This document shows positions 17,724 to 45,181 of a stretch of 52,782 nucleotides of DNA, piece by piece (within the stretch, counting starts at the first letter, position 1; every line of letters begins with the position of its first letter). Source of the stretch: a virus. The translations under genes and the position numbers were made by a program. Under the pieces are notes generated by a model. That model saw only the letters and a program-made list of their open reading frames with translations. It was not told where the DNA came from and ran no database searches. The DNA is taken from the IMG/VR virus record IMGVR_UViG_3300025674_000059, positions 1 through 52,782 of that record; one strand, given 5' to 3'.

Positions 17724-19247
17724 ATGTCAATACACGAGCAGTTTGCCACCCGTTTCGTGGGGTTGAGACACGGTTATAGTGTCTTTACCCCGACGAAAGA
17801 AACACGGGAAGATGGCAAAGCGAAAGGGAAATATGTAACTATTTCACAAACGCTCAACCAGAAAGAGTTATTCGCTATCTGGGCAGAGCATATAAGAGGG
17901 GAAAGAAGCCTCGGTATCGTACCGATTGATGAGAATAATATGTGTTCGTGGGGGGCTATCGACATAGACGATTACCCGCTAGATCTCAAAGCGTTAGCTA
18001 AAAAGATCAAGAAGTTCAAGCTACCTATGGTCGTTACACGATCTAAGAGTGGCGGAGCGCATATCTTTATGTTTGTATTTGACCCAGTTCCTTGTTCTAC
18101 GATGCAACGTAAACTGAGACAAATATCCGCAGCGATAGGCTTTGGTCAGTCTGAGGTATTTCCTAAACAGACTAAGCTCTTGTTAGCAAGAGGAGATAGA
18201 GGAAGTCCGTTACAGATGCCGTATTTTGGCGGCGAAGACTCTACTAGCTATGGGTTCGGTGCCACTGGCAACGTCCTTACGCCAGCCGAGTTTTTAGATT
18301 ACTGTGAAAGTATCGTCCTTACTGAAGAAGAGCTGGATAAGCTCGAAGTCACGCCTATCTTAGAAGATATGGAATGGCTCGACCACTCTCCTCCGTGCCT
18401 AGAACACTTGATCGCTCAAGGATTCCCGAAAGGTATGCGTAACTCTGGGCTGTTTAACGTGGGAGTATTTCTGCGTAAAAAGTTTCCAGACGATTGGGAA
18501 GGTCGGCTAGAGCAGATAAACCACAAACACTTTAGCCCACCGTTGAGTGCGCAAGAAGTGTTGTCGGTAGCAAAGCAAGTTCAGAAAAAGGATTACTTCT
18601 ATAGGTGTAACGACCAGCCGATAGCTGGCCATTGCAACAGCCCACTGTGCCGTACACGCAAGTTCGGTATCGGTGCGTCAGGAGGTACGCCTTTGTTTAG
18701 TAACTTGACTAAACAGAATAGTGATCCACCAATCTGGTTCTTAGATGTCGAAGGCGGCAGGCTAGAACTCGAGACGGAGGAGTTACTTAACCAGACTCGG
18801 TTCCAACGAAAGTGTATGGATAGCCTCAACATTATTCCGCCGAAAGTACGGGATAACGTATGGCGCACTATTATCCAACAGCTTCTCGATACGCTGACCA
18901 TTATTGAAGTACCGAAAGATGCTTCGACAGAAGGTCACTTTAACGAGTTGTTAGAAACATTTTGTACCGAACGACCGGCTAGGGAACGAGACGAGCTACT
19001 ACTTGGTAAACCTTGGACAGATAAAAGCAGGACGTATTTCCGTTTAGCTGACCTAATGGACTTCTTACACCGTAAGAATTTCAGGGATTACCCTCGTAAT
19101 AAGCTAACCGCCAAGCTCAAGAATATGGGCGGCGATTCGCATTTCTTTAACATCAAGGGCAAGGGCGCTAACGTCTGGCATATACCAGAGTTCCAAGCGC
19201 AAAACGAATCCCATTCGTTGCCTGAGTTCAACGACTCACCGTTGTAA
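17724..19247 (+). CDS. Archaeo-eukaryotic-type primase (TOTE-like)
   Basis: A 507-residue primase that would make primers for the family A polymerase. AEP motifs: AIDIDDYP with D80, D82 and D83 (metal-binding motif I) and RSKSGGAHIF (106-115) carrying the motif II Ser and His. The pattern matches the primase domain associated with TOTE conflict elements. The second half resembles a primase C-terminal domain: PPCLEHLIAQG with C225, then C295, H303, C304 and C309, possible zinc ligands. No helicase domain is fused; instead a UvrD-like helicase starts at the very stop codon (one-base overlap). A DnaG-type primase is not seen in the window. Confidence 0.8.
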   Translation: MSIHEQFATRFVGLRHGYSVFTPTKETREDGKAKGKYVTISQTLNQKELFAIWAEHIRGERSLGIVPIDENNMCSWGAIDIDDYPLDLKALAKKIKKFKLPMVVTRSKSGGAHIFMFVFDPVPCSTMQRKLRQISAAIGFGQSEVFPKQTKLLLARGDRGSPLQMPYFGGEDSTSYGFGATGNVLTPAEFLDYCESIVLTEEELDKLEVTPILEDMEWLDHSPPCLEHLIAQGFPKGMRNSGLFNVGVFLRKKFPDDWEGRLEQINHKHFSPPLSAQEVLSVAKQVQKKDYFYRCNDQPIAGHCNSPLCRTRKFGIGASGGTPLFSNLTKQNSDPPIWFLDVEGGRLELETEELLNQTRFQRKCMDSLNIIPPKVRDNVWRTIIQQLLDTLTIIEVPKDASTEGHFNELLETFCTERPARERDELLLGKPWTDKSRTYFRLADLMDFLHRKNFRDYPRNKLTAKLKNMGGDSHFFNIKGKGANVWHIPEFQAQNESHSLPEFNDSPL

Positions 19248-20740
19248 TGTTAAAATCGAATGCACAAATAATCCTTGGGCCTCCAGGAACAGGGAAAACG
19301 AGCACACTACTAGAGCTATTAGAAGAAGAATTAGATCGGGGGACTTGCCCAGAAGACATTGGGTTCTTCACCTTTACCAAACAAGCGGTACAGGAAGGCA
19401 AGACTAGGGCGATGTCAAGGTTTGCGATAACGAATGGACAGTTACCGTATTTTAGAACCTTACATTCTCTTTGCTTTTTCCAGTTAGGGCTGTCGAAAGA
19501 TAGCGTCATGAGTTCAAGAGATATTGGTGATTTAAACCAGAAGTTGAACTTGCGTCTAACTGGCTCTATTAGTTCCGAAGAAGGACATATCTCGAGCATC
19601 TCTAAAGATGACAGATTATTGTTTATAGAAAACCTTGCTCGAATGAGACAGGTAAATTTAGAAACCCAGTGGCACGATTCTGATGACGTGGTGGGCTGGT
19701 TTGAACTAGAGCGGTTCGCGAACGGATTACGACTGTTTAAGGATGACAGACTGCTTATCGACTATACCGATATGTTGCAACTGTTTTTAGATCGAGGTCG
19801 TGCTCCGAAGTTAGATGTAATGTTCGTAGACGAAGCTCAAGACTTATCGCCGTTACAGTGGGCGGTAGTTCGTAAGTTATGTGAATCAGCGGATCGTATT
19901 TATATCGCAGGCGATGATGATCAAGCGATCTATCGTTGGGCGGGTGCCGACGTTGATTATCTAATTCGTAATTCAAAAGACGCGATGATTTTAAAACAGT
20001 CTTATCGCGTTCCATCTTCGATACATAAGCTCGCGCAAAACTGTATCGGGCAGGTTGTTTCGCGAGTACAGAAAAGCTGGAACCCTCGTAAAGAAGCTGG
20101 ACACGTTTCGTGGGAACCGTCTTACGAAACGATCGACATGGAAAGCGGTGAGTGGTTAGTGCTTGCTAGGACAAACTACTTACTAAATGGGATCGAAGAA
20201 CATTGCCGGTCAGAAGGCTGGTTCTATAAAAGTAAAAACCGCAACTCAGTTTCTGAGAAAAAGGTCAAAGCGGTGCGCGATTGGGAAACTCTACGGCAGG
20301 GCGGCGAAATACCGATCGTAGATCTTACCAAAGTCTTAAACTATATGAAGATCCGCGTACCTATCTCCCTAGAGAGAAACGACTTTGATACTAATATCTC
20401 ATTCGATCAGGCGCAGCAGTTCGTACCTGACCTTAAAAAAGAATATTGGTACGATTTGTTTGACGGAATCTCAGTTTCAGAGCGCAGCTATATCCGTGCG
20501 ATGCTTAGGCGAGGAGAAAAAATAACCAAAGAACCACGGATCAAGCTCTCGACCATCCATGCAGCTAAAGGAGGCGAAGCTGAAAACGTAATCTTGCTAA
20601 CCGATATATCGAACAGGATTTATAAATCGTACCAGTCAAACCCTGACGACGAGTCGCGGGTGTTTTACGTTGGACTAACCCGAGCAAAGGAGAACTTGTT
20701 TTTAATTGAGCCGCAAACTCAAAAATACTTCCCGCTTTAG
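19247..20740 (+). CDS. SF1 helicase, UvrD/PcrA-like
   Basis: A 497-residue, 3'-5' type superfamily 1 helicase by motif. Walker A GPPGTGKT (11-18), motif II DEAQD (195-199), motif III GDDDQAIYRWAGA (222-234), motif IV-like KQSYRVP, motif V STIHAAKGGEAENVIL, and motif VI VFYVGLTRAK near the C-terminus. It is smaller than cellular UvrD (about 720 residues), with reduced 1B/2B insertions. Overlap with the primase stop suggests co-translation, and it may act as the replicative or accessory unwinding enzyme since no DnaB-type helicase was found. The stop is immediately followed by a repeated promoter-like element. Confidence 0.9.
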   Translation: MLKSNAQIILGPPGTGKTSTLLELLEEELDRGTCPEDIGFFTFTKQAVQEGKTRAMSRFAITNGQLPYFRTLHSLCFFQLGLSKDSVMSSRDIGDLNQKLNLRLTGSISSEEGHISSISKDDRLLFIENLARMRQVNLETQWHDSDDVVGWFELERFANGLRLFKDDRLLIDYTDMLQLFLDRGRAPKLDVMFVDEAQDLSPLQWAVVRKLCESADRIYIAGDDDQAIYRWAGADVDYLIRNSKDAMILKQSYRVPSSIHKLAQNCIGQVVSRVQKSWNPRKEAGHVSWEPSYETIDMESGEWLVLARTNYLLNGIEEHCRSEGWFYKSKNRNSVSEKKVKAVRDWETLRQGGEIPIVDLTKVLNYMKIRVPISLERNDFDTNISFDQAQQFVPDLKKEYWYDLFDGISVSERSYIRAMLRRGEKITKEPRIKLSTIHAAKGGEAENVILLTDISNRIYKSYQSNPDDESRVFYVGLTRAKENLFLIEPQTQKYFPL

Positions 20741-20797: not shown

Positions 20798-21298
20798 ATG
20801 AATATCTTTGTAACTGACTCTTGTCCTGTACAAAGTGCGCGTGAACAATGTGATAAACACTGTGTGAAGATGGTTCTAGAATCTGCTCAGATGTTATCTA
20901 CTGCGTGGCGCGTGTTTGATAACGAATATGCAGAAAAAGAGAACTTGTACAAACAAGCGCATCTAAACCACCCATGTAGTATCTGGGTTCGTGAAGAGCC
21001 AGAAAACTACATCTGGTTATATCGACACTTTTCGGAGTTGTGTAAAGAGTATACACACCGCTACGGTAAAGAACATAAGTCGTCGAGGCTTTTGTGGTCG
21101 CTGTTCTGGCTACCCTTCCCTGATTACCGGATACAACGCGCAAATAAAAATCCAGAGGGCTTTGCGTTAGCAATGCCTGATGAATATAAATCCGAAGATG
21201 TTTACGCTTCGTACCGCAACTACCTGATTGGCGAGAAATCCTATTTCGCTAAATGGGTAAAAGACCCTTCAAGAAAACCAACATGGTGGATTAGTTAA
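20798..21298 (+). CDS. Pyrimidine-dimer DNA glycosylase-like protein
   Basis: A 166-residue protein of the Pyr_excise-type family common in phages (start NIFVTDSCPVQSAREQCDKHCVKM, then LESAQMLSTAWRV, HPCSIWVRE and a C-terminal ALAMPDEYKSEDVYASYRNY segment). The family is related to T4 endonuclease V, which cuts at UV-induced cyclobutane dimers; phage members of this subgroup are mostly uncharacterised. It starts the transcript after a repeated promoter-like element and overlaps the methyltransferase gene by one base. Since it opens a cluster of probable base-modification genes, a role in handling modified bases is an alternative to UV repair. Confidence 0.65.
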   Translation: MNIFVTDSCPVQSAREQCDKHCVKMVLESAQMLSTAWRVFDNEYAEKENLYKQAHLNHPCSIWVREEPENYIWLYRHFSELCKEYTHRYGKEHKSSRLLWSLFWLPFPDYRIQRANKNPEGFALAMPDEYKSEDVYASYRNYLIGEKSYFAKWVKDPSRKPTWWIS

Positions 21299-22161
21299 TG
21301 GCCTCTATTAGAAAGACCCTTCAAGAAAACGCTAACGACAGCAAAAATACCCGCATGGATATTGCCAGCGGCAATATGTTAGGGAACTGGCGACCTGATG
21401 AAATTACGCATATGACGCGCTTCGATAAGTGTTCGTCGCTATGTATCGGAGAAGCGAAATATCGCGACAGACCTATCGACGTACTCGAGGCAGGGTGCGG
21501 AGAACTTTGGGTACTGCGTAACTTGTATAAAGCCTACACCGTAAAGAAGTCGGACGTGATCCGCTCTTATCGCGGCGTAGATATCGACCCAGCTGTCCTG
21601 AACGAAAAGGTTGGCTATAGCAGCCCTACTGGACTTGTTCAAGACTCGACATGGTTCGCTAACTTTAACGGACAGATTGATATTCAAGACCTTACGGTAA
21701 ATCCCGTATTTGACCTGCCCGACGAATCAATAGACTTTTTCTGGACTACTGAAGTTATTGAACATATGGGCCGCGAGTTTATTGCACCGTGGCTTGATGA
21801 CGCTAACCGAGTATTACGTCCAGGAGGACTGATTTACGTTTCAACGCCTAACCATGACGGCTCTAACGATAAGCTCCCCGAAGACCACGTTTACGAATGG
21901 GGCTTCGAAGAACTAAAAGACGAGCTTACGAAAGAATCACGAGGGTGGGAACTACAGTCGGTTGTCGGTACGTTTTGCCAAATGCCTAAACTAAAGAAGG
22001 CTATGCAGAAAGACGGCGAGGACGGCGAATGGCGTTGGCTACCTGATCAGTTCGAGTTACTCGAAGAACGCTACGGCAAACAGTTTTTACGAGTAGTTGC
22101 CGCTACGTTTTTCCCAGAAGTTTCTAACAACTGTGCGTGGATATTGAGAAAGCCTTCATGA
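21298..22161 (+). CDS. Class I SAM-dependent methyltransferase
   Basis: A 287-residue protein with the class I fold signature: motif I VLEAGCGE (62-69), acidic motif II in GVDID (93-97), a TEVIEHMG segment (151-158) and NRVLRPGGLIYVSTPN (170-185). The last part is the small-molecule/Methyltransf_11 style rather than the DPPY or PC motif of standard DNA methyltransferases. So the substrate could be a base intermediate, sugar, lipid or protein. It sits inside a run of overlapping genes with the aGPT-like and thymidylate-synthase-like proteins, which makes a modified-nucleotide substrate worth considering. Substrate not determined. Confidence 0.8.
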   Translation: MASIRKTLQENANDSKNTRMDIASGNMLGNWRPDEITHMTRFDKCSSLCIGEAKYRDRPIDVLEAGCGELWVLRNLYKAYTVKKSDVIRSYRGVDIDPAVLNEKVGYSSPTGLVQDSTWFANFNGQIDIQDLTVNPVFDLPDESIDFFWTTEVIEHMGREFIAPWLDDANRVLRPGGLIYVSTPNHDGSNDKLPEDHVYEWGFEELKDELTKESRGWELQSVVGTFCQMPKLKKAMQKDGEDGEWRWLPDQFELLEERYGKQFLRVVAATFFPEVSNNCAWILRKPS

Positions 22162-23084
22162 CAAACTTTATACCTGCAGAGGTAGATAGGTACGTTTACT
22201 GGATCGAAGAACGTGAACGTATTCGTCATCTAAAAGAGGAGGTTCAACAAGAGCCTCCTTGGACGCAAGACCCGATACTGCAAGAGTTTAAGTTTTGCCA
22301 AGTTTTCCGTGAGGACGATAGGACTACGCGGTGGTTTCGCGAGCATATTCGCGAGCCACTACGCAACGACCCCGACGTACTGATGGCGACAGTAATTTTT
22401 AGATTCTTCAATTTGATCGAAACAGGGAGAACGCTGCTCGACCATAACTTACTAACTGAATGGGATCGAGAGAAAGCGATCGAAGAAGTGCGGAAACAGC
22501 CGAAGTGGATTACCGGCGCGTATATCGTCAAAACTCCTAACCGCATGGATAAGGTAACAGGCGTGGCTGAGTGTGTTACTCATCTATGGGTAGAGCGGGA
22601 GCGTATTCTAAAAGATTTTAAACATTTTAAATCTTTATGTGACGCGTGGCATTACTTAATGAGGTTCCCGTATATCGGGCCGTTTGTATCTTACGAACTA
22701 GTTTCTGACCTACGTCACACCCACCTGCTAGAAAACGCTGAGGATATTTGTTCGTGGGCGAATGCTGGGCCTGGAGCAATGAGAGGGCTAAACAGGCTGA
22801 CAGGTAGACCACTAGAGTTCTGCAAACGCAGTTGGGATTGGAATGGTGAAATGCAGGCGCTATACCAGTGGTGTAGAGAACAGCTAGACCTTAGTAAATT
22901 CCACAGACCTTTCGAGATGCGGGAGATCGAAGGAGGACTATGTGAGTTTGATAAATATTCTCGCATATTGCATGGACAAGGACGTACCCGAAGCGTCTAT
23001 AACTACTCAGAAAGAAACCGTCCTCTAATAGAGGATATAGAGAATGGAGAAAGTAAATGGGGAAACTCAAACAGTTGGTCGTAG
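22158..23084 (+). CDS. aGPT-pyrophosphorylase / 5-hmdU DNA kinase helical-domain protein
   Basis: The start is ATG 22158 (ATGA overlap with the previous stop), not the upstream GTG at 22137; this gives 308 residues. All-helical, with the family landmarks FRFFNLIETG (81-90), a GAYIV segment (about 120-124), FPYIGPFVSYELVSDLRHT (170-188) and WANAGPGAMRGLNRLTGR (200-217). I recognise these as the helical domain named alpha-glutamyl/putrescinyl thymine pyrophosphorylase, also found in 5-hmdU DNA kinases. It was defined in work on phage thymine hypermodification and is distantly related to helix-hairpin-helix glycosylases. No P-loop kinase is fused here. Next genes include a thymidylate-synthase-like enzyme and an Nmad1 protein. 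Confidence 0.65.
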   Translation: MTNFIPAEVDRYVYWIEERERIRHLKEEVQQEPPWTQDPILQEFKFCQVFREDDRTTRWFREHIREPLRNDPDVLMATVIFRFFNLIETGRTLLDHNLLTEWDREKAIEEVRKQPKWITGAYIVKTPNRMDKVTGVAECVTHLWVERERILKDFKHFKSLCDAWHYLMRFPYIGPFVSYELVSDLRHTHLLENAEDICSWANAGPGAMRGLNRLTGRPLEFCKRSWDWNGEMQALYQWCREQLDLSKFHRPFEMREIEGGLCEFDKYSRILHGQGRTRSVYNYSERNRPLIEDIENGESKWGNSNSWS

Positions 23085-23293
23085 ATCTAGATAAAGATCA
23101 GGTTGCCTTCGCTATGGAGCATTACGGACTGTTCCTACAAAAAGCGATGAAAGATAAAACGATGCCGAATACTTGGCAAGACGCTATCAACGCAATTCAT
23201 TGGGCAGCGTATATTTCAGGTGTCGATCTAGGCCGCATTCAGATCGAATACATCATTAACCAGCAGACGGAGAGCCTTTATGAAAGTGATTAG
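23057..23293 (+). CDS. Small helical protein in the modification cluster
   Basis: A 78-residue protein, mostly helical, with no recognised domain. GGAGAAAG (23045-23052) lies before ATG 23057. It overlaps the aGPT-like gene by 28 bases and the thymidylate-synthase-like gene by 14, so it is tightly embedded in the operon and likely real. It may be a subunit or regulator of one of the enzymes; nothing in the sequence shows which. Confidence 0.6.
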   Translation: MGKLKQLVVDLDKDQVAFAMEHYGLFLQKAMKDKTMPNTWQDAINAIHWAAYISGVDLGRIQIEYIINQQTESLYESD

Positions 23294-24332
23294 CGCCGTT
23301 AATGTAAATGACGCGCTGTTACGCGGCGTCGATTTATTCCAGTCTTCGGTGAATTACCGAACTCAATCTAGTCGTAACGGAGATACGATGGAGTGCCATA
23401 CTCCTGTAACTACTGTTTACCGGAAACCTTGGCAGCGAGTATTGTTCAATGAAAAGCGAGACGCTAACCCTTTCTTTCATCTATATGAAGCTATTTGGAT
23501 GCTGGGAGGTTCTCGAGATCTGCAAAAGCTCACTCATTTTAACGCAGGAATGGCTAACTTTTCAGACGATAACGAAACCTTAAACGGTTCTTACGGCTAT
23601 CGGTGGAGGCAACAGTTTGATTACGATCAGATTGAAAGCGTAGTAGATATGCTAACGAGAGATCCTGACTCGCGTCGAGTAGTTTTACAGATGTGGGATC
23701 CAGTAAATGATCTAGATAGCCCAAGCAAAGATATTCCGTGTAATACGAACATCTACTTTAAGATCAGAGACAGCGCCTTACAGATGACTGTCTGTAACAG
23801 ATCGAACGATATGATCTGGGGAGCTTACGGAGCTAACGCAGTTCATATGTCGGTGTTGCAAGAATACGTTGCTGCAGCATTAGGCTGCTACATGGGGCCG
23901 TATTATCAAGTTAGTGATAGCTTCCATGTCTACCTGAATAAAGAATGGGATAAGGTAAAAGACCTTCGAGTTACGCCTTTCCTCCCAGTATCCGAAGAAT
24001 ATCCAGAAGAACACTATCCTCTCTGCTCTCACCCCGAGACGTTTTTAGAGGAATGTGAGGAACTATTAGACAGTGTCCCGCCGAGACGAGTTTCAGGAAA
24101 CCCTGAGCCGGTCGATAGCTGGCCGACGATATTCGGAGCAAGTAAGTATAAAAACACCTTCTTCCCAGAGGTAATGATCCCGATGATCCACGCCTACATC
24201 TGCCATAAGGAGCGGCGATATGAAGATTGCTACAAATATCTCGGAGAAATTAAAGCGTTGGACTGGCAACAAGCCTGCTTCCAGTGGATTAAACGACGAG
24301 AAAGAAATTGGAGAAATAAAAATGGGTCTTGA
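23280..24332 (+). CDS. Thymidylate synthase / pyrimidine hydroxymethylase-like enzyme
   Basis: A 350-residue member of the thymidylate synthase superfamily, which adds a one-carbon unit from methylene-tetrahydrofolate to C5 of dUMP or dCMP. Catalytic Cys154 lies in DIPCNT, the phosphate-binding Arg pair is in DSRRVV (132-133), NRSND (173-177) matches the Arg-Ser-x-Asp motif, and SFHVY (214-218) matches the His-x-Tyr motif. In an ungapped alignment the base-selecting Asn of thymidylate synthase falls on Ala185, beside Asn186, in the GAYGANAVH loop. Thus base and product (methyl or hydroxymethyl) cannot be settled by eye. Its neighbours favour a hydroxymethyl-dUMP role. Confidence 0.75.
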   Translation: MKVISAVNVNDALLRGVDLFQSSVNYRTQSSRNGDTMECHTPVTTVYRKPWQRVLFNEKRDANPFFHLYEAIWMLGGSRDLQKLTHFNAGMANFSDDNETLNGSYGYRWRQQFDYDQIESVVDMLTRDPDSRRVVLQMWDPVNDLDSPSKDIPCNTNIYFKIRDSALQMTVCNRSNDMIWGAYGANAVHMSVLQEYVAAALGCYMGPYYQVSDSFHVYLNKEWDKVKDLRVTPFLPVSEEYPEEHYPLCSHPETFLEECEELLDSVPPRRVSGNPEPVDSWPTIFGASKYKNTFFPEVMIPMIHAYICHKERRYEDCYKYLGEIKALDWQQACFQWIKRRERNWRNKNGS

Positions 24333-24654
24333 TCGCAAGTGGACGGATATGAAAAATATCGCTCAGGAAGATATTGTTAGCCTGATCGAATCGGAAAAAT
24401 CTTACGGTGATTCGTGGAAGCGTCGGGGCGGTACGGGGGCATTTATGATGTTAGCCCGTAAGTTCGACAGGATCGAACAGCAGGCCGAGCATTGTAATTA
24501 CGATGTGTTCGAGGCAGGGATAAAGTTCGACGGCGAAGATGGGTTACTCGACGATATCGGAGACCTTAGACGCTATTTATTTTTAGTTGAGCAACATATT
24601 CGTTCGCTAGAATCAGGAGGACTGATAGATGCAGATACCTCTGATCCAACCTGA
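24322..24654 (+). CDS. Nmad1 (DUF1599)-like nucleotide-modification-associated protein
   Basis: The start is ATG 24322, after GGAG at 24310-24313; a longer frame from 24220 lies inside the preceding gene. 110 residues, with KSYGDSWKRRGGTGAF and LARKFDRIEQQ followed by a C-terminal DDIGDLRRYLFL helix. This pattern matches the domain named nucleotide-modification-associated domain 1 (DUF1599), a small helical module that travels with DNA-base-modification genes in phages. Its biochemical role is not known. It overlaps both the thymidylate-synthase-like gene and the polymerase gene. Identification is from motif memory, so moderate confidence. Confidence 0.6.
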   Translation: MGLDRKWTDMKNIAQEDIVSLIESEKSYGDSWKRRGGTGAFMMLARKFDRIEQQAEHCNYDVFEAGIKFDGEDGLLDDIGDLRRYLFLVEQHIRSLESGGLIDADTSDPT

Positions 24655-26491
24655 AAGCGATTGGATAGCTCCGCAAGTTTTACCTAAGTTCGACCCACAC
24701 GAAACGCTCGCGGTCGATTTAGAAACTTACGACCCCAACTTGATAAACCGTGGCCCAGGATGGGCAACGGGTGACGGCTACGTTGTCGGGATCGCTATCG
24801 CATCAGATTCATGGTCAGGGTATTTACCGATACGGCACGAAAACGGTGGCAACTTAGAGGAAGAAGTTGTCCTACGCTGGCTCAAAAGAACCTTTGAAAA
24901 TCATAAAGGTACGATGGTTTTCCATAATGCACTTTATGATGTTGGCTGGCTAAAACGTGAAGGTGTAGAACTAACGTGTAGGTTGCGCGATACGATGTTT
25001 GCAGCGCCATTGTTAGATGAAAACCGACGGTCATACTCGTTAAACAACTTAGGTAAGGATTTATTAGCTGAGGAAAAAGACGAAACGCTACTCGAGATGG
25101 CAGCAAAAGCGTGGGGCGTAAACGCAAAGAGCGGCATGTGGTCGCTCCCAGCGAAGTATGTGGGGCCGTATGCGGAACAGGATGCAGTCCTAACACTACG
25201 CCTGTGGAAGACGCTAGGGAAGCGTATAGAGGCCGAGGGGCTACAGAAGATATTCGACCTAGAGTGCGACCTTATACCGCTGCTGATCGAGATGCGATGG
25301 CGTGGCGTTCGGATCGACACGGCCCGAGCAGAGCAAGCCTCGGAGCAAATGTCTAAGAAAGAACAGCAACTACTCGTAGAGATTAAGAGACGGTTCGGTA
25401 TCAACGTAGATATTTGGGCGAGCGCGTCAATACAAAAAGCGTTCGACGCCAATGACTTATGGTATCCACATACCGAGAAAGGCGCACCAAGTTTCCAAGG
25501 CCCGTGGTTAGAAGCTCACGACCACGACCTCCCGAAGATGATTGTTGAAGCTCGACGTATCAATAAAGCTCGGACTACGTTTATCGAAGGAGCGATCCTA
25601 GAGTATTCTCACAACGGTCGGATACACGCTGAAGCTCACCCGCTAAAGAATGATGGTGGCGGTACAGTAACAGGACGGTTTAGTTACTCGAACCCAAATC
25701 TTCAGCAAGTTCCTGCGAGAGACCCAGAGATCGGTAAACTGATTCGTTCTTTGTTTATCCCCGAAGAAGGAGCAACGTGGGGGGTATTCGATTACTCTCA
25801 ACAAGAGCCTCGGATTACCGTACATTATTCGTCGCTACTCGGACTCGAGGGAGCCGCTGACGCGGTAAATGCGTATTCTAACGAAGGAGCTGACTTTCAC
25901 CAGATCGTAGCGGATATGGCGGGTATCCCCCGCAAACAAGCTAAGAATATCAATCTTGGCTTAACGTATGGGATGGGCCGCGAAAAGCTCATTAAAGAAC
26001 TAGGACTAGAGTCAGACGAAGCTGGGAAACTACTCGACTTATACCATAGCCGCGTTCCTTTTATCCGAGGGATACAAAACATGTGTACTCGGATGGCAGA
26101 ACAGCGCGGGTATATAACAACACTCGGTGGTCGTAAATGCCATTTCGATTTATGGGAGCCGGTCGGATATTTACATGGGGAAAAACAAACGCCGTTACCC
26201 AGACAAGAAGCGGTAGATAAGTATGGTGATAACCTCAAGCGGTCGTTTACATACAAGGCACTAAACAAGCTGATCCAAGGATCGGCTGCAGATATGACGA
26301 AACTCGCTATGCGTGATTTGTGGAAAGAAGGATTAGTTCCGCATATTGGTATACATGACGAACTCGACTATTCGATTTTTAATAAAGAACAATCAGACAT
26401 GGTGATCGATAAGATGGTCAACTGTGTCGATTTAAAAGTTCCACTAGTAGTGGATTACGAAACCGGAATAAATTGGGGTGAAGCTAAATGA
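24629..26491 (+). CDS. polA: DNA polymerase I (family A) with 3'-5' exonuclease
   Basis: A 620-residue replicative polymerase. Exonuclease motifs: DLET (30-33), FHNALYDVGW (98-107) and YAEQD (181-185). Polymerase motif A is VFDYSQQEPR with D388. The O-helix is RKQAKNINLGLTYG (435-448), aligning K439 with E. coli K758 and Y447 with Y766, while the residue equivalent to F762 is Leu443. Motif C is HDE (576-578). No 5'-3' exonuclease domain. AGGAGG (24615-24620) lies 8 bases before ATG 24629. Leu at the 762 position is a recognised subtype among virioplankton polymerases, with ideas linking it to fidelity and life style. Confidence 0.95.
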   Translation: MQIPLIQPESDWIAPQVLPKFDPHETLAVDLETYDPNLINRGPGWATGDGYVVGIAIASDSWSGYLPIRHENGGNLEEEVVLRWLKRTFENHKGTMVFHNALYDVGWLKREGVELTCRLRDTMFAAPLLDENRRSYSLNNLGKDLLAEEKDETLLEMAAKAWGVNAKSGMWSLPAKYVGPYAEQDAVLTLRLWKTLGKRIEAEGLQKIFDLECDLIPLLIEMRWRGVRIDTARAEQASEQMSKKEQQLLVEIKRRFGINVDIWASASIQKAFDANDLWYPHTEKGAPSFQGPWLEAHDHDLPKMIVEARRINKARTTFIEGAILEYSHNGRIHAEAHPLKNDGGGTVTGRFSYSNPNLQQVPARDPEIGKLIRSLFIPEEGATWGVFDYSQQEPRITVHYSSLLGLEGAADAVNAYSNEGADFHQIVADMAGIPRKQAKNINLGLTYGMGREKLIKELGLESDEAGKLLDLYHSRVPFIRGIQNMCTRMAEQRGYITTLGGRKCHFDLWEPVGYLHGEKQTPLPRQEAVDKYGDNLKRSFTYKALNKLIQGSAADMTKLAMRDLWKEGLVPHIGIHDELDYSIFNKEQSDMVIDKMVNCVDLKVPLVVDYETGINWGEAK

Positions 26492-44536: not shown

Positions 44537-44736
44537 TGGATTTTATAAAATATTCGGAGTTTTTACTCCGCAAACTGCGGGAGAGACAAGCGGATCTCAC
44601 GCAAACACTCGCCACTGGTGGCGCACAAGACTTTGTTCAGTACCAACGTATTGTTGGTGAAATTTCAGGGCTTAATTTCGCTGAACAAGAAATAATCGCC
44701 CTGCATGGAAGGATGGAAGATGTCGAAGACGACTGA
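44536..44736 (+). CDS. 66-residue helical protein
   Basis: Two helices (FIKYSEFLLRKLRERQADLTQTL and QDFVQYQRIVGEISGLNFAEQEI) around a short Gly turn. The size and helix-turn-helix layout resemble small head-assembly proteins of phages, but no family is named. The preceding stop shares a base with its ATG. The next gene starts within its last 17 bases. Confidence 0.5.
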   Translation: MDFIKYSEFLLRKLRERQADLTQTLATGGAQDFVQYQRIVGEISGLNFAEQEIIALHGRMEDVEDD

Positions 44737-45181
44737 AGAAATTGACCTAAGTAGCATAAGTGCTACCCCTGAACGAGTTCTTAATTTTGGTTCTGATACG
44801 CCTTCAGAACCTGCTAAAGAGGGCATAACCTCTGAAAATTATGAAGCTCATGCGGATAAGCTACCTAACCCAACGGGCTATCGGTTACTTATTCTTCCGT
44901 TTACTCCTCCGGAGAAAACAAAAGGCGGCATTATGTTAGCTAAACAAACTCTTGATAAAGAGCGGATAGCTACCGTAGTTGGGCTGGTTGTAAGAAAAGG
45001 CCCAGATGCTTATTCCGACAAAGATAAATTTCCCGAAGGCGCTTGGTGCGATGAAGGCGATTGGGTAATTTTTGGTCGCTATGCAGGAGCTAGATTTAAT
45101 ATCGACGGAGGCGATATGCGCCTTTTAAACGATGATGAAATTTTAGCTGTTGTAAATAATCCAGAAGATATTCTGCAATAA
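44720..45181 (+). CDS. GroES-like co-chaperonin
   Basis: Start ATG 44720; an in-frame ATG at 44705 is possible. 153 residues: an N-terminal extension of about 45 residues, then a Cpn10 domain: GYRLLILPFTPPEKTKGGI (start strand and mobile loop with the GGI tripeptide), IATVVGLVVRKGP, a GDWVIFGRYAG segment and MRLLNDDEILAVV. GroES works as the lid of the GroEL folding chamber. Phage versions such as T4 gp31 fit the phage's own capsid protein. Its place between portal and scaffold/capsid genes supports that role here. Confidence 0.85.
   Translation: MSKTTEEIDLSSISATPERVLNFGSDTPSEPAKEGITSENYEAHADKLPNPTGYRLLILPFTPPEKTKGGIMLAKQTLDKERIATVVGLVVRKGPDAYSDKDKFPEGAWCDEGDWVIFGRYAGARFNIDGGDMRLLNDDEILAVVNNPEDILQ

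Follow-up and report, generated by a model that had tools for sequence, protein, structure and literature searches.

The gene cluster between the UvrD-like helicase and PolA genes of the window, as we call the whole 52,782-nucleotide stretch of the IMG/VR virus record IMGVR_UViG_3300025674_000059, is well supported as a thymine (5-hmdU) modification cassette, as an earlier note on this DNA had suggested. On the reading that we favor from sequence comparison, O-methylation would be the last step of this cassette and 5-methoxymethyl-dU its product; we regard this whole reading as evenly poised between right and wrong.

Organization of the cluster

An ORF check reproduced the coordinates of the five-gene cluster, with all genes on the same strand and each ORF overlapping or touching the next (Table 1), indicating that the described cluster of tightly overlapping genes is real. 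Its composition had been called unusual, which applied to the gene content only, as the base composition was uniform. The junction between the genes of the methyltransferase (MT) and the HMUDK_hel protein (HEL) is an ATGA overlap, and a stop/start overlap at this junction was observed in 29 of 38 MT-type loci. An alternative GTG start of HEL at 22137 is also open, and the X144 frame is open from 24220, the start at 24322 giving less overlap. Among 150 IMG/VR loci fetched with the HEL or MT protein, several contigs being included twice, both genes were present in 147 and the remaining three ended inside the cluster, indicating that the arrangement is not due to chance. No DNA-level relatives of the window were found in the phage collection.

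Table 1. Genes of the cassette and its borders in the window.
Feature	Coordinates	Strand	Family match or remark
UvrD-like helicase	19247..20740	+	PF00580, E 2.5e-27; borders the cassette slot on the left
Pyr_excise-family protein, 166 aa	20798..21298	+	PF03013, E 1.1e-9
MT, class I methyltransferase, 287 aa	21298..22161	+	Methyltransf_23 (PF13489), E 5.5e-10
HEL, HMUDK_hel (aGPT-Pplase1) protein	22158..23084	+	PF18723, E 1.8e-44
78-aa ORF	23057..23293	+	no family at cut-off
TS-family protein, 350 aa, predicted dUMP hydroxymethylase	23280..24332	+	PF00303, E 3.7e-23
X144, small conserved protein, 110 aa	24322..24654	+	homologues near HEL
PolA, Family A DNA polymerase	24629..26491	+	PF00476, E 2.4e-55; borders the cassette slot on the right

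The Pfam matches bore out the placing of MT among class I methyltransferases and of the TS-family protein in the thymidylate synthase superfamily. The placing of HEL in the aGPT/HMUDK helical family, for which a profile search had been set beforehand as the refutation test, also held when this search was run.

TS-family protein and HEL

The TS-family protein matched phrog_5131 ('thymidylate synthase') with an E-value of 5.7e-107, and its nearest solved chain was a CMP 5-hydroxymethylase (E 2.3e-23). It contains the catalytic Cys C146, N177 (dUMP), D143, and N147 (E. coli numbering), and the last three match M6-like proteins; the alignment also held an SPO1-like protein that we take to be a known dUMP hydroxymethylase. 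These residues are of the dUMP-hydroxymethylase type, and the protein is predicted to be such an enzyme. The dU-type residue was present in 100 of 100 TS proteins with HEL, and the dC-type residue in 39 of 40 without HEL. For 100–102 of 113 HEL loci, a TS gene lay no more than 6 kb away in the same orientation, 100 of these loci entering the residue count; the T4 control was misaligned to a Tyr, and the row of locus L404 showed Ile, each with Asp adjacent.

Neither phmmer nor a profile search found a relative of HEL among PDB sequences at a usable E-value. HEL was compared by fold as a candidate member of the HhH DNA glycosylase superfamily: its predicted model (pLDDT 91.9) showed Z-scores of 10.8 to SsOgg and MjOgg and 10.5 to PaMx11 gp46, values that helical folds often reach and may owe to chance, and Foldseek gave a weak match to DNA glycosylase-like folds (best E 0.088). 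From this model, we propose that HEL may be a 5-hmdU-recognizing partner of MT. Fusions of MT or a kinase with HEL, which would have served as proof of contact, were absent among the ORFs of the loci examined. A Walker A match in 14 HEL ORFs was traced to a C-terminal GESKYGK[ST] stretch and not to a kinase domain. HEL co-occurs with several kinds of group-transfer enzyme and is thus not specific to kinase systems; phage P26218 has ADDT, TS, and a kinase-like protein but lacks HEL, which counts against our explanation by indicating that some hmdU chemistry does without HEL.

Properties of MT and its association with hydroxymethylases

The nearest solved structures to the MT profile were Hen1 and UbiG (E about 1e-9). 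MT carries a SAM-binding motif and E-x-x-E-H with a downstream His, as do Hen1/UbiG-like methyltransferases, and E152, E155, H156, and H197 of this pattern were invariant in 55 of 55 homologues. O-methylation chemistry is favored because of this profile and these invariant residues, and MT is probably a metal-dependent, Hen1/UbiG-like enzyme; the lower-ranked solved relatives, which include N-, C-, and lysine methyltransferases, count against this preference. Fold comparison of the predicted model (pLDDT 89.2) was tried as a guide to the substrate and was set aside: CmoM (Z 18.1), METTL6 (17.8), RebM (17.3), and HEN1 (16.7) were close together, many classes were tied, and all 50 rows lay between Z 15.9 and 18.1, such that the MT fold alone decides nothing.

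As for gene neighbors, a TS-family gene was located within 6 kb of MT in 58 of the 60 distinct MT loci returned (79 clusters at 85% identity, less 19 with short flanks), and MT homologues in the phage collection adjoined pyrimidine hydroxymethylases in four of four distinct phages. A distant MT branch without HEL adjoins dCMP-type hydroxymethylases in other phages and sits beside nucleotide-level genes, AXL3 having served as the guide for naming these neighbors from their position and length. MT thus appears to follow the hydroxymethyl group, as TS is near MT in nearly all these loci and its residue is of dU type with HEL and of dC type without it. Two observations count against our explanation: window MT shares only 21–27% identity with the other branch, and this branch indicates that MT does not always depend on HEL. 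From the sequence evidence, we propose that MT would be an O-methyltransferase of 5-hydroxymethyluracil in DNA.

Search for kinases and other finishing enzymes

The earlier note had seen no P-loop kinase, and our scans agreed. A strict Walker A motif ([AG]xxxxGK[ST]) occurred among window ORFs of at least 80 aa in the UvrD-like helicase only, and when 66 distinct window ORFs were scanned against Pfam, in part with families counted at E ≤ 0.001, no family of nucleotide kinases, glycosyltransferases, or amino-acid transferases came up. Similarly, matches were found in 0 of 26 window-clade records, which carry no completeness estimate, for the 5-hmdU kinase family PF18748 and for the amino acid:DNA transferase family PF18724. 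These records drew on 25 of 27 MT-type contigs longer than 50 kb, L031 and L211 being left out. All four control phages were positive for PF18724; all four also matched PF18748, three of them above the cut-off and the PaMx11 kinase below it, indicating that PF18748 can miss divergent kinases, which counts against our explanation. Likewise rejected was a TAGT glycosyltransferase encoded outside the cluster (PF20691 in 0 of 26 of the same records, again without completeness estimate). Home-made kinase and ADDT models were also negative near HEL in all 38 MT-type loci. Of the options raised earlier, a methyl group added by MT is now favored over a supply of the missing steps by other genes; kinase and transferase models found nothing in the 26 records, and MT stands where relatives carry other enzymes.

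Exchange of partner enzymes in the cassette slot

In the related genomes DSL-LC04 and 023Pt_psg01, UvrD and PolA adjoin directly or are separated by two small ORFs, respectively, and neither genome has a PF18723 or PF00303 match. In other phages, the same slot holds the core of HEL and hydroxymethylase with a different transferase; both MT-type (38) and TAGT-type (19) cassettes were found there, and MT occupies the place taken in relatives by a kinase, glycosyltransferase, or other enzyme. MT was present in 38 of 113 distinct HEL loci among those returned, and none of these 38 had a kinase, ADDT, TAGT, FkbM, GT1, radical SAM, or C47 family near HEL. The locus scans took the best 80 each of 129, at least 533, at least 573, and 255 relatives, and counts refer to the loci returned; 315 HEL loci gave 158 clusters at 90% identity, from which 45 with less than 4 kb of flank on one side were dropped to leave 113. 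The window itself is outside this count and is represented by close relatives such as L007. Neighbor families were defined by home-made HMMs seeded from BLAST clusters and named by the Pfam hits of single members, and the kinase representative (L227) had no PF18748 match. Across the HEL tree, 18 or more changes of partner type were counted; this tree came from a quick search and has long branches, the branch setting off the MT loci having a support of 20.

The accessory genes varied in their attachment to the cassette. The head gene, previously described as dimer-glycosylase-like, matched PF03013 with 39 bits (cut-off 23) and phrog_624 (E 4e-59), as a putative pyrimidine dimer DNA glycosylase would; it is only an accessory, present close to HEL in 21 of the 38 MT-type loci, 18 of the 32 GT-type loci, and just one of the 32 kinase-type loci. 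The 78-aa ORF matched no Pfam or phrog family at the cut-off and is kept in part of the clade; blastp placed a homologue close to HEL in 14 of the 38 MT-type loci. An X144 homologue lay close to HEL in all 38 MT-type loci, in 21 of 23 TAGT-type loci, and in 5 of 24 kinase+ADDT loci, and the one in Pam3 was annotated by its depositor as 'nucleotide modification'. The description of X144 as Nmad1-like gained no support from profile search: among 25 homologues, none matched a Pfam Nmad entry even at E ≤ 1.

Proposed mechanism and alternative explanations

We propose that the cluster would be an exchangeable cassette for DNA base modification, carried by an HTVC023P-like phage. As judged by residues and orthology, the TS-family enzyme would make 5-hydroxymethyl-dUMP, which cellular kinases may take to the triphosphate, and PolA would insert 5-hmdU into DNA, replacing part or all of T. 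HEL, with its predicted DNA-glycosylase-like fold, may then recognize 5-hmdU in DNA, and MT would O-methylate its hydroxymethyl group to 5-(methoxymethyl)-2'-deoxyuridine. Neither 5-hmdU kinase nor amino-acid transferase would take part, the methyl cap standing in for the phosphate and amino acid, or the sugar, of other phages. The modification would likely protect DNA from host nucleases, as other phage base modifications do.

MT could also act on free nucleotides or RNA. It is unlikely, in our estimate, that MT transfers another part of SAM (such as 3-amino-3-carboxypropyl) or methylates the free 5-hydroxymethyl nucleotide before incorporation. Class I methyltransferase folds that transfer other groups exist, and MT of the HEL-less branch lies beside nucleotide-level genes; in the window clade, MT goes instead with HEL, a protein whose possible relatives by fold have DNA bases as substrates, and not with nucleotide kinases. 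In favor of this alternative, an analogous carbamoyltransferase acts on both 5hmdCTP and DNA, according to PMC8670742. It is more doubtful still that the phage has plain 5-hmdU DNA of the SPO1 type, with HEL as a 5-hmdU reader and MT working elsewhere, e.g., in anti-defence RNA repair by 2'-O-methylation of RNA ends. MT has Hen1, which 2'-O-methylates RNA 3' ends, among its nearest relatives by sequence, and the slot does hold a Pyr_excise-like gene without a clear modification role. Against this, MT lies beside pyrimidine hydroxymethylases in nearly all loci (58/60) and all phages (4/4) counted, was never found with another finishing enzyme beside HEL (0/38), and is accompanied by no RNA ligase or Pnkp-like family among the 66 window ORFs scanned.

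Ordinary hypermodification of the M6/PaMx11 type, with kinase and ADDT supplied by the host or by unrecognized genes, would fit the homology of HEL and TS to those of M6-like phages and the failure of PF18748 with some divergent kinases. We consider it very unlikely, given that both families were absent from the 26 records, that the home-made models were negative in the 38 loci, and that Walker A was confined to the helicase in the window. Least probable of all is a plain thymidylate synthase in a cluster for nucleotide supply only: relatives of the TS-family protein are so annotated, but its hydroxymethylase-type residues, its closest solved relative, and its constant pairing with HEL argue otherwise.

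Relation to known systems and significance

Pseudomonas phages M6 and PaMx11 carry homologous HEL and TS/hydroxymethylase genes beside PolA in a like order, as seen via the SN1 and PaMx11 records; they have a P-loop kinase and ADDT, whereas the window clade has neither (0/26) and has MT instead. TAGT-type cassettes (Brevibacterium phage LuckyBarnes and IMG/VR contigs) have the HEL and TS core in common with the window, and in the IMG/VR contigs also the UvrD-PolA slot, with a glycosyltransferase instead of MT. Hen1 and UbiG, the nearest solved sequences of MT, have E-x-x-E-H and the downstream His in common with it; their substrates are RNA ends and quinone precursors, respectively, and neither are DNA bases. 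HTVC023P-type pelagiphages, according to PMC9599517, have TS and aG/PT-PPlase1 near PolA, with a glucosyltransferase in some clades. Phage type, core pair, and place near PolA are thus common to these cassettes and the window; the main text of PMC9599517 names no methyltransferase, whereas the window has MT. In 5-hydroxymethylcytosine carbamoyltransferase systems, as PMC8670742 describes them, a group-transfer enzyme caps the hydroxymethyl group of a base that a neighboring TS-family enzyme makes, as would be the case in the window; carbamoyl on cytosine has been shown there, whereas methyl on uracil is proposed here. The DNA of Stenotrophomonas phage AXL3 resisted 35 of 37 enzymes, and its modification was left open by the authors (PMC7504290). 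AXL3 and its relatives have a homologous MT beside a TS-family hydroxymethylase, like the window, but with the dCMP-type residue and without HEL.

Lee 2022 reportedly deals with permutations of genes across metagenomes, and this gene combination may already appear there; our literature search found no description of a 5-methoxymethyl base in phage DNA. A wider reading, which we hold tentatively and lower because of the low identity across MT branches, is that a Hen1-like phage MT family O-methylates 5-hydroxymethylpyrimidines, giving 5-methoxymethyl-dU in HTVC023P-like and 5-methoxymethyl-dC in AXL3-type phages, and that HEL is a general 5-hmdU-presenting partner of interchangeable kinases, glycosyltransferases, and methyltransferases. 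This MT family might explain the restriction-resistant DNA of AXL3. If O-methylation is true, a small O-methylated thymine analogue without charge, in contrast to sugar or amine caps, would join the phage bases, and the HMUDK_hel (aGPT-Pplase1) family would gain a testable role independent of the kinase. The logic of a hydroxymethylase plus a swappable finishing enzyme would then be testable with a few purified proteins.

A cassette between UvrD and PolA

The window is a single linear contig from IMG/VR, 52,782 bases long. It was taken as an HTVC023P-like phage because the nearest relatives of its large terminase subunit were those of DSL-LC04 (59.5% identity), 023Pt_psg01 (59.2%) and Pelagibacter phage HTVC027P (55.0%). 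From 17.7 kb, an AEP-type primase and a UvrD-like helicase are followed by the cluster and a family A DNA polymerase (PolA). The first gene of the cluster encodes a PF03013 protein; then come a class I methyltransferase (MT), an HMUDK_hel protein (HEL; PF18723, E 1.8e-44), an ORF of 78 aa, a protein of the thymidylate synthase family (TS) and, last, the small conserved protein X144. Adjacent reading frames touch or overlap, and base composition is constant across the cluster. The UvrD and PolA frames of DSL-LC04 overlap each other directly, and those of 023Pt_psg01 are separated by two small ORFs; neither genome showed a match to PF18723 or PF00303 anywhere. This contact or near-contact, together with the missing families, argues that the cluster is a cassette between two backbone genes. 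Of 38 distinct loci, 29 have MT and HEL joined by a stop/start overlap, with an offset of 0 in 18 loci and of −3 in 11, and the UvrD-PolA slot is common to MT-type (38) and TAGT-type (19) cassettes. One of the 47 window ORFs scanned matched Cpn10 (GroES-like, E 1.2e-10).

Features and their coordinates
Feature	Record	Coordinates	Strand	Remark
Cluster	window	20798-24654	+	
MT	window	21298-22161	+	
HEL	window	22158-23084	+	
TS	window	23280-24332	+	
X144	window	24322-24654	+	
Cpn10-matching ORF	window	44705-45181		most likely this ORF, among head genes (judged from translation)
Tandem HEL genes	L203	7968-9700		two adjacent genes; neighbours: TAGT glycosyltransferase, radical SAM protein
PaMx11 gp49	L002	9381-9950		annotated 'terminase small subunit'
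P26218 gp15	L161	5385-5963		annotated 'terminase small subunit'

Models for the kinase (PF18748), the amino acid:DNA transferase ADDT (PF18724) and TAGT (PF20691) each matched none of 26 window-clade records (the window plus 25 others >50 kb); none of these has a completeness estimate, and a piece may be missing from any single one. As controls, SN1, PaMx11, Pam3 and MW2 matched both of the first two models (4/4; PaMx11 matched PF18748 below the curated cut-off), and PF20691 matched 3/3 TAGT-type records. Pfam scans of 66 distinct window ORFs found no kinase, glycosyltransferase, PLP, radical SAM or FAD-enzyme family.

TS is a predicted dUMP hydroxymethylase

The nearest solved relative of TS was a CMP 5-hydroxymethylase (E 2.3e-23). 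Bordetella phage CN1 encodes a relative with 42.5% identity whose annotation reads thymidylate synthase/deoxyuridylate hydroxymethyltransferase. To compare residues, TS was aligned with ThyA of E. coli, gp42 of T4 and an SPO1-like phage protein, taken as the known dUMP hydroxymethylase. The window TS retains C146 and has Asn 177, Asp 143 and Asn 147, a pattern shared with the SPO1-like, SN1, PaMx11 and Pam3 proteins. Because of these two relatives and four residues, a dUMP hydroxymethylase is the best call for TS. According to PMC8670742, Asn to Asp at 177 converts the enzyme from dUMP to dCMP, and 147 is the other site distinguishing modified from unmodified contigs.

MT accompanies hydroxymethylases

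Outside its own clade, METHYLTRANSFERASE (MT) matched five records from four phages among 50,697 phage records: AXL3 (two records), PW916 and two Manatee Spring genomes. Each of the four phages has a gene annotated as thymidylate synthase, pyrimidine hmase or deoxyuridylate hydroxymethyltransferase that begins within ~1.6 kb of the MT end. From an AXL3-led scan, the best 80 of 255 relatives were used. MT proteins formed 79 clusters at 85% identity, 60 of them with flanks. A TS-family gene lay within 6 kb in 58 of these 60 (exceptions L381 and L382); for scale, any match to the window TS occurs in 994 of the 50,697 phage records. Position 177 is Asn in 100/100 TS proteins beside HEL and Asp in 39/40 beside MT without HEL, the exception (L404) having Asp next to the aligned column. 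Among 42 HEL-less MT loci examined, the surroundings of MT encode TS (37), a Walker A protein (32), a 164-aa protein (28) and a 176-aa protein (25), the last three being, after the AXL3 annotation, thymidylate-kinase-like, NTP pyrophosphohydrolase and dCMP deaminase; we take this to be a T4-like gene set for 5-hmC nucleotides. By TS proximity, the split at 177 and these neighbours, a single methyltransferase family thus accompanies the 5-hydroxymethyl group, whether this sits on one pyrimidine or the other. PMC7504290 reports that two of 37 enzymes cut AXL3 DNA, and does not name the modification. Both of these enzymes have A/T-only sites, the outcome that modified C would give.

HEL changes its partner enzymes

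PF18723 carries the name of 5-hmdU kinase, and HEL is encoded with a P-loop kinase and ADDT in SN1 (M6-like), PaMx11, Bordetella phage MW2 and Pam3. The neighbours of HEL in Brevibacterium phage LuckyBarnes are TS and two TAGT glycosyltransferases, and neither PF18748 nor PF18724 matches that genome; HEL is not bound to a kinase. At least 315 HEL loci were collected, giving 158 clusters at 90% identity and 113 with ≥4 kb of flank per side.

Partner types among the 113 HEL loci
Partner type	Loci
MT alone	38
kinase + ADDT	24
TAGT alone	23
no listed class	8
kinase alone	6
FkbM + GT1	2
radical SAM + C47	2
TAGT + radical SAM	2
TAGT + FkbM	2
GT1 + radical SAM	2
ADDT	1
TAGT + FkbM + radical SAM	1
C47	1
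kinase + radical SAM	1

None of the other seven finishing-enzyme classes lay within 6 kb of HEL in the 38 MT loci (Fisher p 1.5e-22, too small since the loci are kin). On a quick tree, the 113 HEL proteins require at least 18 partner-type changes against a minimum possible of 4; the MT loci need one, and the branch setting them apart has support 20. This exclusion, the partner changes and the common UvrD-PolA slot fit the pattern expected if MT were a finishing enzyme replacing a glycosyltransferase or kinase.

The same slot of L183, L193 and L201 has, after HEL, a 346-aa protein with no Pfam match and a radical SAM/SPASM protein, possibly another finishing chemistry. PaMx11 gp49 and P26218 gp15 both hit AAA_33, with a weak second match to the model for 5-hmdU DNA kinase, and their label is probably a misannotation.

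Role of HEL

Since HEL persists while the group-transfer enzyme varies, a base-recognising partner is the most economical reading, although ADDT, a kinase-like protein and TS occur in phage P26218 with no HEL, and MT without HEL exists; HEL may instead be a catalyst in its own right. Its predicted model (pLDDT 91.9) resembled the queuine salvage enzyme DUF2419 (Z 11.4), archaeal 8-oxoguanine DNA glycosylases (Z 10.8) and PaMx11 gp46, the 5-phosphomethyl-dU glycinyltransferase (Z 10.5), but the best Foldseek E was only 0.088 and mostly helical models can score such Z without kinship.

HEL also has cellular roles without a hydroxymethylase: of 54 HEL loci on genome contigs, 34 lack every other modification family over the stretch retrieved (L424, L427, L429-L431, L433-L461; alphaproteobacterial, archaeal and CPR bins, Haloferax elongans). 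PMC13092281 lists aGPT-Pplase as a predicted defence domain. Five loci (L411, L413, L414, L415, L428; Hyphomicrobiaceae, Hyphomonadaceae, a Pseudomonadota bin) carry HEL, TS and a long X144 (~270-330 aa), and no finishing enzyme was recognised there; Pfam gave no match for the long X144 in L413.

Proposed chemistry of MT

A profile of 55 MT proteins, searched against solved sequences, first matched two methyltransferase type 12 entries (bacterial Hen1 domains), UbiG, HEN1 and Hen1 (E 1e-9 to 4e-9), followed at weaker E-values by N-, C- and lysine methyltransferases. Leading relatives of the Hen1 and UbiG type methylate oxygen atoms. The EVIEH motif of MT aligns with EVIEH of 3jwg, and a downstream H-x-x-E with its H-R-F-E; E152, E155, H156 and H197 are identical in 55/55, and the corresponding residues of plant HEN1 bind the catalytic metal. 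Many methyltransferases fit the predicted fold (pLDDT 89.2) equally, the top row being CmoM (Z 18.1) with rows at 17-18 as ties; CmoM methylates the 5-substituent of a tRNA uridine (PMC12783734). The simplest step to unite these observations would be O-methylation of the 5-hydroxymethyl group by MT.

The literature searched described no methoxymethyl base in phage DNA and did not place this methyltransferase in such a role; Lee 2022, reportedly a key paper on thymidine hypermodification gene permutations, lay outside its scope. In PMC9599517, HTVC023P-type phages carry a TS and aGPT-Pplase1 pair near PolA, as in the window, and some clades a glucosyltransferase; the word 'methyltransferase' is absent from its main text. 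Transferase capping of hydroxymethylpyrimidine is known for glucose and carbamoyl (PMC8670742). Because this gene pair and transferase capping are already published, the cassette frame is known, and it is the finishing chemistry, a methyl cap, that would be new.
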